Shown: positions 43,084 through 45,959 of the stretch, piece by piece
How the letters are laid out: each line of letters begins with the position of its first letter
Position numbering within the stretch: the stretch's first letter is position 1
Origin: Sphingorhabdus sp. Alg231-15
GTDB lineage: Bacteria > Pseudomonadota > Alphaproteobacteria > Sphingomonadales > Sphingomonadaceae
Length of the DNA stretch: 64,000 nucleotides
Direction of reading: 5' to 3'
Assembly (NCBI RefSeq): GCF_900149705.1
Contig: NZ_LT703001.1
Span: forward strand, 372,001-436,000
Program-made: the position numbers and the translations under genes
Notes under the pieces: model-generated
Database searches by the model: none
What the model saw: only the letters and a program-made list of their open reading frames with translations
Told to the model about the DNA's origin: nothing

Positions 43084-44952
43084 TCACACGATGTCGTCTA
43101 CCTGAGTGAGTTCAACCAACCGTTCATGAAATTCCTGCTTTGCCTTGCGCAATCGTTGCTGCTCAGCATAGCTTTCTTCATCAAGATTATCTTGCACCCG
43201 TCGTGTTGCTTCCGCCAGAGCCGCTTCCAGTCCGGGGCGCGCCGTGATCACTTTAATCGCTTCCGCCAAATCATTTTGCGCCCGTTCGATAAAATCTGAC
43301 GGGGCAGAATCTGGCAGTTTGCGGTTGAAAGTGAAATTCAGCGCATCGGCCCGTAACAGCCCTTTTGCGACATTATAACAATCTGTCTGTTCCAATATGG
43401 TAAGAAGGGCCTGCATATCAAGCATTTCTTTGCTCATTGCCGAACCTATCAACTCGGACAGCAAGGTCTGCATTTGCGAATCGGCAAGGCGCAAAACGGT
43501 TAGCTCTTCAAAATGCTTGGAAATCTGGGATGGATGGCGAATTAATCCGCCCAATATGGCCTTTGCAATGCGCAGGTCATGTCCTTCGACCAAAACGGAC
43601 TTGGTGTCATCCATCGGCTTGAATGAAACATATTGGGAACCGTATCCCCCTTTGGAGCGTTCAAATTGCTTCTGCCTCGGTCGATTTTCACGTCTGGCAA
43701 AAAACGTGTTTTCATATCGCTGCTGAAAATCTTGCCGATAGTGTTGGGCAATATCCTGATCAGCAATATCACGAACATGATCAGACAGGCGTTTTTTCAG
43801 TCCAGCCTTGGTTTCCGGTGTGTTCAGAGGTTCGGCCTCAAACTCGACTTGCCAGATTTTATCACCCAGCATTTGTGGGTTTTCGATCAACGTCGCAAAG
43901 GCTTGTGGTCCATCAGATCGAATCAGATCGTCAGGATCTTGTCCTGCCGGCAGCGCGATGAAGTTCAGGCTGTGGGACGGACGAAGGATCGGTAGCGCCC
44001 TTAACGCGGCGCGCATAGCCGCTTTTTGGCCCGCATTGTCCCCATCAAAGCAAAGTATGGGTGCTTCAACCATTTTCCAGATCCGTTCGATCTGATGTTC
44101 TGTCAGAGCGGTGCCCAATGGCGCAACGACATCCTCGAAACCGGCCTGCGCCAGCGCAATCGCATCCATATAGCCTTCGACCACCAATATACGTCCGGTC
44201 TGACGCGATGCCGGTGACGCCTTGTCGAGATTGTAGAGTGTGCGGCCTTTATCGAACAAAGGTGTATCGGGAGAGTTGAGATATTTCGGCTCGCCATCGC
44301 CCAATATCCGACCGCCAAAGGCGATCACACGTCCCCTTGGATCGCGGATCGGGATCATCAATCGGCCGCGGAAGCGATCATAGGGATCACGATCGTCGAC
44401 TTTTATGAGCAAGCCTGCTTCGACCAGTTGGTCGACGCCGTGAGTTGACAGTGCTTCCTTGAGGCGCCCGCGTGAATCCGGGGCAAAACCAAAGCCGAAT
44501 TCGCGAATTGTCTTTTCCGAAATGCCGCGGTTTTTCAGGTATTCACGCGCCGCCGTACCCTCGATCCCGTTAAACTGGGTGACGAACCAATCCTGTGCTG
44601 CCGCCATGACGTCATGTAATGTTGCCCGGGCCTCCTGCCGCTGTGCAGCGCGTGGATCGGGGGCAGGGACTTCCATCTGCGCTTCGGCCGCCAGGTCCTT
44701 CACCGCATCCATGAAGCTGAGGCCGCGCTGGTCGGTCATCCAGCGGATGGCATCACCATGGGCGCCGCAACCAAAACAATGGTAGAAGCCTTTCTCGTCG
44801 TTAATCGTGAAACTAGGCGTCTTCTCGTTATGAAACGGACAGCAGGCCTTAAACTCGCGCCCGGCCTTCTGGACCTTCACCGTCCTGCCAATCAGCGTGG
44901 ACAGGGTCGTCCGGCTGCGCAGTTCATCAAGCCATTGCGGAGAAAGGGTCAT
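43084..44952 (-). CDS. dnaG: DNA primase DnaG
   Basis: Replicative primase of 622 aa. The N-terminal zinc domain has Cys 38, His 41, Cys 59 and Cys 62 in CCPFHNEKTPSF and YHCFGCGAHGD; the RNA-polymerase domain follows and the Toprim domain has VVEGYMDAIAL and LCFDGDNAGQKA. The C-terminal DnaB-binding region is present. ATG 44952 overlaps the stop of the DUF559 gene as ATGA. The only Shine-Dalgarno (GGAGGGGG) lies inside the palindromic repeat at 44956-44990. Confidence 0.97.
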   Translation of the reverse strand: MTLSPQWLDELRSRTTLSTLIGRTVKVQKAGREFKACCPFHNEKTPSFTINDEKGFYHCFGCGAHGDAIRWMTDQRGLSFMDAVKDLAAEAQMEVPAPDPRAAQRQEARATLHDVMAAAQDWFVTQFNGIEGTAAREYLKNRGISEKTIREFGFGFAPDSRGRLKEALSTHGVDQLVEAGLLIKVDDRDPYDRFRGRLMIPIRDPRGRVIAFGGRILGDGEPKYLNSPDTPLFDKGRTLYNLDKASPASRQTGRILVVEGYMDAIALAQAGFEDVVAPLGTALTEHQIERIWKMVEAPILCFDGDNAGQKAAMRAALRALPILRPSHSLNFIALPAGQDPDDLIRSDGPQAFATLIENPQMLGDKIWQVEFEAEPLNTPETKAGLKKRLSDHVRDIADQDIAQHYRQDFQQRYENTFFARRENRPRQKQFERSKGGYGSQYVSFKPMDDTKSVLVEGHDLRIAKAILGGLIRHPSQISKHFEELTVLRLADSQMQTLLSELIGSAMSKEMLDMQALLTILEQTDCYNVAKGLLRADALNFTFNRKLPDSAPSDFIERAQNDLAEAIKVITARPGLEAALAEATRRVQDNLDEESYAEQQRLRKAKQEFHERLVELTQVDDIV

Positions 44953-45338
44953 AAATCCCCCTCCCGACTGCGGGAGGGGTTAGGGGTGGGCATATCGTCC
45001 AAAATTTCTTCAATTTGCCGCAAGACACCCTCGATATTACCCATGACTTCCTGATTTGAAAAGCGGACGATATGAAAACCATTTGCTTCCAGAAGCATTG
45101 TCCTTCTTTCATCATAGCGTTGCTGCAGGTCATGGGAATAACCGTCAATTTCGATTATCAGATTAAGTTCTCGACACAGAAAGTCTGCGAAATATGGCCC
45201 GACGGGCATTTGCCTACTAAACTTACGTCCCTTGACTTGGCGTTTCTTTAGACAATTCCAAAGTTTACGTTCTGCTGGAGTCGCTTCTTTCCGCAGGGAT
45301 TGGGCGCGATTGGTATCTCTTCGTTTGAAAGTTACCAT
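44949..45338 (-). CDS. DUF559 (Vsr-like endonuclease fold) protein
   Basis: 129-aa protein of the DUF559 family, with a PD-(D/E)xK/Vsr-like fold. The conserved residues are visible: ATPAERKLW (Glu 23), YFADFLC (Asp 52), IIEIDGYSH (Glu 63, Asp 65, His 69) and GFHIVRFSNQEV. Many such proteins are uncharacterised. Residues 117-128 (PTPNPSRSREGD) are encoded by a 35-bp palindromic repeat whose near-identical inverted copy lies 19 bp upstream of the start. The stop overlaps the dnaG start. The gene sits between yqeY and dnaG, so it looks like an insertion in that operon; mobility is inferred. Confidence 0.9.
   Translation of the reverse strand: MVTFKRRDTNRAQSLRKEATPAERKLWNCLKKRQVKGRKFSRQMPVGPYFADFLCRELNLIIEIDGYSHDLQQRYDERRTMLLEANGFHIVRFSNQEVMGNIEGVLRQIEEILDDMPTPNPSRSREGDL
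44956..44990 (+). repeat. 35-bp palindromic repeat, copy 1
   Basis: Contains a 9-bp perfect stem CCCCTCCCG/CGGGAGGGG with loop ACTG, followed by TTAGGGGTGGG. It matches the reverse complement of copy 2 (45357-45391) at 33 of 35 positions. It encodes the last residues of the DUF559 protein and supplies the ribosome binding site of dnaG on the minus strand. Confidence 0.92.
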
Positions 45339-45356
45339 GCTTCCATAACCATATTT

Positions 45357-45391
45357 CCCACCCCTGACCCCTCCCGCAGGCGGGAGGGGGA
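45357..45391 (-). repeat. 35-bp palindromic repeat, copy 2
   Basis: Inverted partner of copy 1, with the same 9-bp stem and loop CAGG. On the plus strand it is followed by GAATTTTT, resembling an intrinsic terminator. It lies between the yqeY stop and the DUF559 start. Confidence 0.92.
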
Positions 45392-45395
45392 ATTT

Positions 45396-45848
45396 TTAAG
45401 ACAAAGCAGCCTTCACCAGACCGCTGGCCTTGCTCATATCGATTTCGGTGCCATGGCGAGATTTCAGTTCCGCCATAACCCGGCCCATATCTTTCATCGA
45501 TTCCGCGCCGAGCTCCGTCTTGATGCCGTCAATCAGCGCCGCCGTATCGGCTTCACTCAACTGAGCGGGTAGGAATTCCTCGATCACAGCAAGTTCCATC
45601 TTCTCGCCCTTGGCCAATTCATCGCGGCCACCCGATTCGAACATTTCAATCGATTCGCGCCGTTGCTTGGCCATTTTTTGCAGCACATCGGTCACCATGA
45701 CATCGTCATCAAGCTTGCTATCCTTGGTGCGTAGCTCGATATCCTTGTCCTTGATCTTAGCCAACATGGCGCGTGTGGCCGCTGTGCGATCCTTGTCGCC
45801 AGCTTTCATGGCCGCAATTTGTGCCGCTTTCACGTCATCGCGAATCAT
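45396..45848 (-). CDS. GatB/YqeY domain protein
   Basis: 150-aa helical protein of the YqeY family, related to the C-terminal tRNA-binding domain of GatB. The start MIRDDVKAAQIAAMKAGDKD at ATG 45848 has GGGGAA about 7 nt upstream. Visible family segments are RTAATRAMLAKIKDKDIELR and EFLPAQLSEADTAALID, ending in a region like MGRVMAELKSRH. The molecular role is not settled. It heads the run yqeY-DUF559-dnaG-rpoD and diverges from carA. Confidence 0.93.
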   Translation of the reverse strand: MIRDDVKAAQIAAMKAGDKDRTAATRAMLAKIKDKDIELRTKDSKLDDDVMVTDVLQKMAKQRRESIEMFESGGRDELAKGEKMELAVIEEFLPAQLSEADTAALIDGIKTELGAESMKDMGRVMAELKSRHGTEIDMSKASGLVKAALS

Positions 45849-45959
45849 AGCGTTCCCCGTAATTTTGGAATAAGCTACCAACATAGCCGCAACTTATTTT
45901 TTTTCATAGATTGTGACGGTAAAAAACTACACCTAGTCACGGCGAAATTTGCTTGAAGC

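Follow-up and report, generated by a model that had tools for sequence, protein, structure and literature searches.

Why should a small DUF559 gene lie between yqeY and dnaG, bracketed by two palindromes in opposite orientation? This question is raised by one locus of the window (the whole stretch of DNA analyzed, 64,000 nt). Our answer is that the cassette is probably a small autonomous mobile element, made of two inverted triplex-type repeats around their own nuclease gene, with REPINs as its non-autonomous, gene-less relatives. The features of the locus are given below.

45396-45884, minus strand: yqeY, the upstream neighbour of the DUF559 gene (PF09424, 131.1 bits).
45357-45394, minus strand: upstream repeat, in gene orientation (inverted-repeat search and folding as DNA), with its hairpin at 45368-45389 and its inner tail TCAGGGGTGGG at 45357-45367.
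44949-45338, minus strand: DUF559 gene, 129 aa, with a Vsr-like PD-(D/E)XK nuclease fold (PF04480, 125.9 bits).
44953-44990, plus strand: downstream repeat, inverted relative to the upstream one (inverted-repeat search and folding as DNA), with its hairpin at 44958-44979 and its inner tail TTAGGGGTGGG at 44980-44990.
43084-44952, minus strand: dnaG primase, the downstream neighbour (Pfam DNAG_N, zinc ribbon and Toprim matches).

The first-pass annotation had described a 129-aa DUF559 gene that separates yqeY from dnaG and lies between opposite 35-bp repeats agreeing at 33 of 35 positions, each with a 9-bp stem. All of this was confirmed: the three genes are on the minus strand, each arm folds as DNA into a 9-bp stem with a 4-nt loop, and the arms (44953-44990 and 45357-45394, with a spacing of 366 nt) extend to 38 nt, of which 35 are complementary (92%). 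The 38-nt arms are terminal inverted repeats such as those of an insertion sequence or MITE. One reads AAATCCCCCTCCCG...GGGAGGGGTTAGGGGTGGG and the other is a near copy; their stems are CCCCTCCCG/CGGGAGGGG, and each arm consists of the hairpin and an 11-nt G-rich tail directed to the DUF559 gene. The DUF559 stop codon overlaps the dnaG start codon, and the downstream arm encodes, in frame on the minus strand, the last ~13 residues of the DUF559 protein (C-terminal PTPNPSRSREGDL). The structure model is poorly defined at this end (mean pLDDT 52 in the last block). Rfam at curated thresholds returned only a tRNA in the window, with no match at the repeats.

The PF04480 match of 125.9 bits, against a curated cut-off of 20.6, places the protein in the DUF559 family. 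Its predicted structure is near 3hrl, the homing endonuclease I-Bth0305I (3r3p) and Vsr (1cw0, 1vsr), and the model displays both the catalytic-domain fold of homing nucleases and the Vsr fold. E63, D65 and D76 are invariant across 59 DUF559 sequences, and the protein is probably a DNA-cutting enzyme. DUF559 is under purifying selection, with a median dN/dS of 0.136 over 178 pairs with usable dS (DUF559 genes at the yqeY-dnaG junction in the genus of G122). DUF559 is present in 127 of 149 genomes of the window's family. A plasmid or phage origin was rejected; tblastn found relatives in just 45 of 72,556 plasmid and 3 of 50,697 phage records, and the gene is therefore mainly chromosomal.

We located 80 DUF559 loci via conserved protein motifs, ignoring the flanks (the best tblastn matches of 496 confirmed candidates). 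They span alpha-, beta- and gammaproteobacteria, together with records named Nitrospiraceae and Gemmataceae. A gene was scored as bracketed when the best inverted repeat across it reached at least 16, and same-size intervals shifted within the same loci served as controls. Inverted palindromes bracketed 58 of the 80 loci, compared with 2 of 417 control intervals; the 22 loci with no strong inverted pair count against an autonomous element. Within the window's genus, 21 of 29 DUF559 genes were bracketed versus 0 of 116 shifted intervals, and 1 of 30 yqeY genes, taken as a control, reached the score. Inverted pairing around DUF559 exceeds chance. With looser expressions, written after the data had been seen, 74 of 79 named DUF559 loci had a triplex-type palindrome on one or both sides, and 48 had one on each side. 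The 30 DUF559 loci from the window's family were the best-scoring ones.

The two ends also match each other. A stem class could be assigned to both ends of 73 DUF559 genes, and in 71 of them the two sides agreed. Further, the repeat class tracked the DUF559 tree, where eight classes required 32 changes against a shuffled mean of 47.4 (0 of 200 as low), and the window's class GGGAGGGG required 3 against 11.6. The tree used 119 domains of 133 distinct genes, leaving out 2 with mixed ends and others without a classed repeat or with too short a match. Two features of this tree weigh against the autonomous element: class GGGGGAGG was unclustered (18 changes versus 17.9), and 15 of 116 inner branches were starred, few being well supported. 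From the bracketing, the matched ends and the agreement of class with tree, the repeat-linked cassette that the first-pass annotation proposed gains support and proves general. The opposite outcome, that repeats elsewhere show no association with DUF559 genes, is refuted by the association in alpha-, beta- and gammaproteobacteria.

The window's own genome (3.62 Mb) has two DUF559 genes. The second, between recN and ligA (names from reading), is bracketed by inverted palindromes too; their stems, CCCCTCCCTTTCAAGGGAGGGG and CCCCTCCTCTTCAGAGGAGGGG on the two sides, are related to the window's but differ from it. Elsewhere in the genome, the window stem pattern with at most 3 mismatches was found in two close inverted pairs (C1:691133/691195 and C1:2471613/2471678) and at two weak single sites. 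Both pairs are arranged as a gene-less cassette, with the G-rich tails inside and the hairpins outside. They lie in frame within the glyS and ileS reading frames (names from protein reading), and a related-type pair lies in frame within ligA (L004, L005 and L301 for all three genes). The conserved core enzymes glyS, ileS and ligA thus carry repeat-encoded peptides.

In the window's genus, CCCCTCCCN2-9GGGAGGGG occurred 201 times in 31 of 32 genomes, while the reversed control occurred 0 times. The pair analysis covered 74 listed of the 201 palindromes, in six genomes, with one listed site (G207) left out. Of the 74 listed sites, 58 formed 29 pairs: 26 were without a gene and spaced 53-119 nt, and 3 held DUF559 at a spacing of 408-409 nt. 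Dispersed inverted palindrome pairs, which characterize REPINs, thus number two in the window's own genome and 29 among the 74 listed congener sites. The cores of these listed sites were compared with those of the cassettes. G211 has a GC-core cassette and nine gene-less pairs, all GC-core; in G209, one flank of a DUF559 gene has a CT-core palindrome, and the four pairs are CT-core; and G210 has both cores, in cassettes and in pairs. That the core subtype of the pairs is that of the cassette palindrome in these three genomes argues for the autonomous element. Two genomes speak against it: in G208, which has three GC-core pairs, neither of the two DUF559 genes is flanked by an exact palindrome, and in G213 the CCCCTCCC palindrome is absent despite four DUF559 genes. 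Across the window's genus, DUF559 copies correlated with palindromes (0.47, p 0.006, n 32), with kinship ignored and cassette ends included. In the 149 family genomes, CCCTCTCCC palindromes numbered 911 versus 3 for the control, and their correlation with DUF559 copies was 0.58, again ignoring kinship and including cassette ends.

The glyS site was surveyed in 32 genomes of the window's genus, of which 20 loci were read. It was empty in 12 of the 20, and held a window-type pair in 3 (G000, G210, G215), a CCTCCC-type repeat in 4 and a third type in 1. Window-type alleles were 75 nt longer, with ~16 nt of the gene replaced. The glyS insertion had no target-site duplication, a point against the autonomous element. 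Two further repeat types occupy the same place of glyS in congeners (L305, L307, L318, L320, L322), as if it were an insertion hot spot.

The first-pass annotation had suggested that the cassette may be "mobile or domesticated", an idea that was to fail if relatives shared one junction throughout with no empty-site allele and repeats elsewhere were unrelated to DUF559 genes. The yqeY-dnaG junction was examined in the genus of G122, which is not the window's genus (60 genomes searched, 56 junctions read). The junction held DUF559 in 26 of 56 (2 of the 26 matches being partial), a GIY-YIG nuclease gene in other repeats in 15, and no nuclease gene in 15. Of this last group, 2 junctions were 154-160 nt and 13 were short; 11 of the short ones were 57-61 nt and resembled, by eye, a single decayed hairpin and tail, and those of L255 and L286 were empty (16 and 13 nt). 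Both empty and otherwise filled alleles thus exist. On a yqeY and dnaG tree of the 56 species, the three states required 20 changes, against 24.9 after label shuffling, and 3 of 200 shuffles were as low; DUF559 alone required 15, of which starred branches force at least 8. The sister species L250 and L160, joined with 100% support, carry DUF559 and GIY-YIG, respectively. Mobility is favoured over domestication at the junction because of the 20 state changes in this other genus; homologous recombination could account for part of them, and homologous exchange could explain the allele turnover as well as transposition. The 44 junctions from the window's family comprised 14 picked for an adjacent nuclease gene and 30 not so picked. 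The 30 unselected ones held DUF559 in 4 (one a remnant), GIY-YIG in 3, a short junction in 12, a short REPIN in 1 and other contents in 8, and dnaG was not found in 2. The yqeY-dnaG gap is too diverged to resolve a target-site duplication, and often has repeat arrays. Among L232-L285, many junction DUF559 alleles have an extra upstream repeat in opposite orientation, and L238, L263, L268 and L271 have another repeat downstream too, giving alternating arrays.

GIY-YIG genes form a parallel class. In a set obtained with PF01541 from 59 genomes (the 30 best-scoring loci, L199-L228), inverted repeats bracketed 22 of 30 single-domain GIY-YIG genes versus 1 of 120 controls. These genes carry either CGTC-kind repeats (CGTCATTCCCGCGAAGGCGGGAATCCA in L207; CGTCATGCTGAAC...TTCAGCATCCA in L213) or GTCGA-kind ones (L203, L205). 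By expressions likewise written with the data in view, CGTC/GTCGA-type repeats accompanied 1 of 79 DUF559 genes versus 22 of 30 GIY-YIG genes, and triplex-type repeats 74 of 79 versus 2 of 30. The two families hardly share repeats. GIY-YIG genes bracketed by REPs are also seen at the yqeY-dnaG junction (L160, L233, L242).

We favour the autonomous element because of the bracketing, the agreement of the two ends, the way in which repeat class goes with nuclease clade, the gene-less pairs, the insertion polymorphism, the purifying selection and the nuclease fold. Its main rival is that DUF559 is a homing-type endonuclease that colonized REPINs, cutting the empty or repeat-bearing allele so that repair copies the cassette in, while the repeats are neither created nor spread by it. 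To judge from the sequences, the allele replacement at the yqeY-dnaG junction would fit such homing-type copying. However, the ends match, nuclease clade and repeat class go together, and gene-less pairs with matching cores are scattered at unrelated sites, for which homing by itself gives no explanation; we therefore regard this rival as unlikely. The window cassette also differs from I-Bth0305I (3r3p) and Vsr (1cw0, 1vsr) in having no intron or intein.

Less likely still, and in our view improbable, is that DUF559 serves the host as a Vsr-like repair nuclease, the repeats being passengers or spread by another enzyme such as a RAYT. The Vsr-like fold of the model would agree with this, as would a Caulobacter DUF559 protein, VsrA: PMC12907096 connects it with the DNA damage that arises when the methyltransferase ScmA is missing, and interprets this as mismatch repair. 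By analogy with the loci described here, a repeat-directed nuclease would be another possible reading of that damage. Against a repair role stand the bracketing far above controls, the different repeats of the DUF559 and GIY-YIG families, and the rapid turnover of the junction.

If the cassette is an autonomous element, its ends may be what the nuclease recognizes. The tail is the mirror image of the purine arm, not a copy of it, with A or T opposite A and G on G. The same mirror pairing governs the antiparallel purine triplex. The window arms, GGGAGGGG with tail GGGGTGGG, obey the general pairing rule of intrastrand triplexes. Over 159 non-redundant elements, the mirror score was 3.56 of 8, against 2.03 for permuted tails (sd 0.14, highest 2.49 of 1000), and the direct-repeat score was 1.85 against 1.60 (sd 0.13). 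In 120 asymmetric arms the mirror was better in 72 and the direct repeat in 5, with 43 ties; in the subset of these with G-rich tails (80) the counts were 62, 2 and 16. The tail as a direct repeat of the arm was thus rejected, the mirror fitting better in both comparisons. It is very improbable that transcription terminators of the usual sort, or control elements based on G-quadruplexes, flank the gene by chance: a T run does follow one arm on the plus strand and the G-runs would also permit a G-quadruplex, but the terminator-like site is on the strand opposite the operon, related pairs lie in frame inside coding genes, and a quadruplex needs no mirror, which won by 62 to 2 in the G-tailed arms.

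For the autonomous element we propose the following cycle. The repeat would become single-stranded, most likely at a replication fork, and form a hairpin, with the G-rich tail folding back along the purine arm to provide the third strand. This folded end may be recognized by the DUF559 protein and nicked or cut at its foot. Repair or replication would then copy the element to a new location or an allelic site, either together with the gene or lacking it.

Motifs of this architecture are known. Holder et al. (2015, PMC4666352), in the part that we draw on, describe intrastrand triplex motifs (PIT / TM_ECO) as hairpins of C-rich and G-rich arms with a G-rich third strand, single or in inverted pairs and widespread in Proteobacteria, and demonstrate triplex formation in vitro with TM_ECO oligonucleotides. 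At the E. coli sites, that part reports no mobility gene and no transposase or integrase remnants nearby, and the main text contains neither the word DUF559 nor endonuclease. By sequence, many DUF559-flanking repeats carry the CCCTCTCCC...GGGAGAGGG stem of TM_ECO. The window stems CCCCTCCCG/CGGGAGGGG differ, falling outside the exact consensus CCCTCNCCCN3-6GGGNGAGGGN3GGGNGAGGG, and the motif, as far as this source goes, was published without an associated enzyme. The triplex motif is thus already known, and its link to an enzyme is the new part. We found no published link between DUF559 and repeats in the open-licence literature, although a paywalled or unpublished report is possible.

The consensus is found at ycjD, the DUF559 gene of E. 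coli, which is strain-variable (3365 of 5426 complete genomes). In strain KE47, an inverted TM_ECO-consensus sequence overlaps the end of the ycjD DUF559 match. This copy escapes the consensus in BW25113, a K-12 derivative, where ycjD is followed ~168 nt downstream by a TM_ECO; by sequence and place, the latter looks like motif 9 in Table 1 of PMC4666352. The ycjD motif is on one side only, the upstream flank being a different hairpin, which again counts against the autonomous element. We rejected ycjD as a clean empty-site test: one ycjD-less locus read (loci set L188, L229, L230) has efflux genes upstream of fabI and so is not a simple insertion. The portion of PMC12817139 consulted describes eefRABCD upstream of fabI.

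Like the cassette, the REPIN-RAYT system (Bertels and Rainey 2011, PMC3116915) combines dispersed inverted pairs of short palindromes with an enzyme gene flanked by the same repeats. Unlike it, that system uses an HUH tyrosine transposase, RAYT, and GTAG-tagged repeats (PMC3116915), whereas here the bracketed gene is PF04480 with a PD-(D/E)XK fold, the repeats are of the triplex type, and a GTAG tag at the repeat foot is absent from both window arms. The likeness to RAYTs and REPs drawn by the first-pass annotation therefore holds for organization and fails for homology. The window element is of the REPIN kind, but its nuclease is not a RAYT and its ends are of the triplex type; support for the cassette idea reaches well past the window. 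CGTC REPs (Di Nocera et al. 2013, PMC3733652) are alphaproteobacterial palindromic repeats too, mostly dimers and some inside genes, for which a dedicated transposase is said to be missing. In tag and stem they are unlike the window's repeats, both arms of which lack the CGTC tag with CCA tail, and in the loci studied the CGTC type goes with GIY-YIG, not DUF559. The GIY-YIG nuclease is a candidate partner of these REPs; we found no published link between GIY-YIG and repetitive extragenic palindromic repeats in the open-licence literature.

The recurring pairing suggests that a class of bacterial DNA repeats, common but so far unexplained, owes its spread to DUF559 as the missing partner. Beyond this, we lean towards the view that every REP family marks the termini of a minimal element that has a nuclease superfamily to itself (RAYT, HUH, for GTAG; DUF559, PD-(D/E)XK, for triplex motifs; GIY-YIG for CGTC/GTCGA), and that DUF559 recognizes its target by the folded triplex. 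If so, the missing partner would be supplied for PIT/TM motifs and CGTC REPs. Two published puzzles become testable, namely triplex motifs of E. coli without a mobility gene nearby (in the part of PMC4666352 cited above) and CGTC REPs without a dedicated transposase (PMC3733652). With small nucleases of homing superfamilies as partners, REP evolution would no longer be a matter of RAYTs only; DUF559, a domain of unknown function, would gain a predicted substrate, and DNA triplexes a likely natural enzyme.

Two minor observations concern individual DUF559 loci. The DUF559 flanks of L115, in a record named Bacillus sp. 2B10, share long stretches of 71-77% identity with sphingomonad records, which points to a possible error in its name or assembly. 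In a deep DUF559 clade (L176, L177, L180, L183, L347), the hairpins are of the CCTCCCC type and the tails are not G-rich mirrors, possibly representing a second mode of end recognition.
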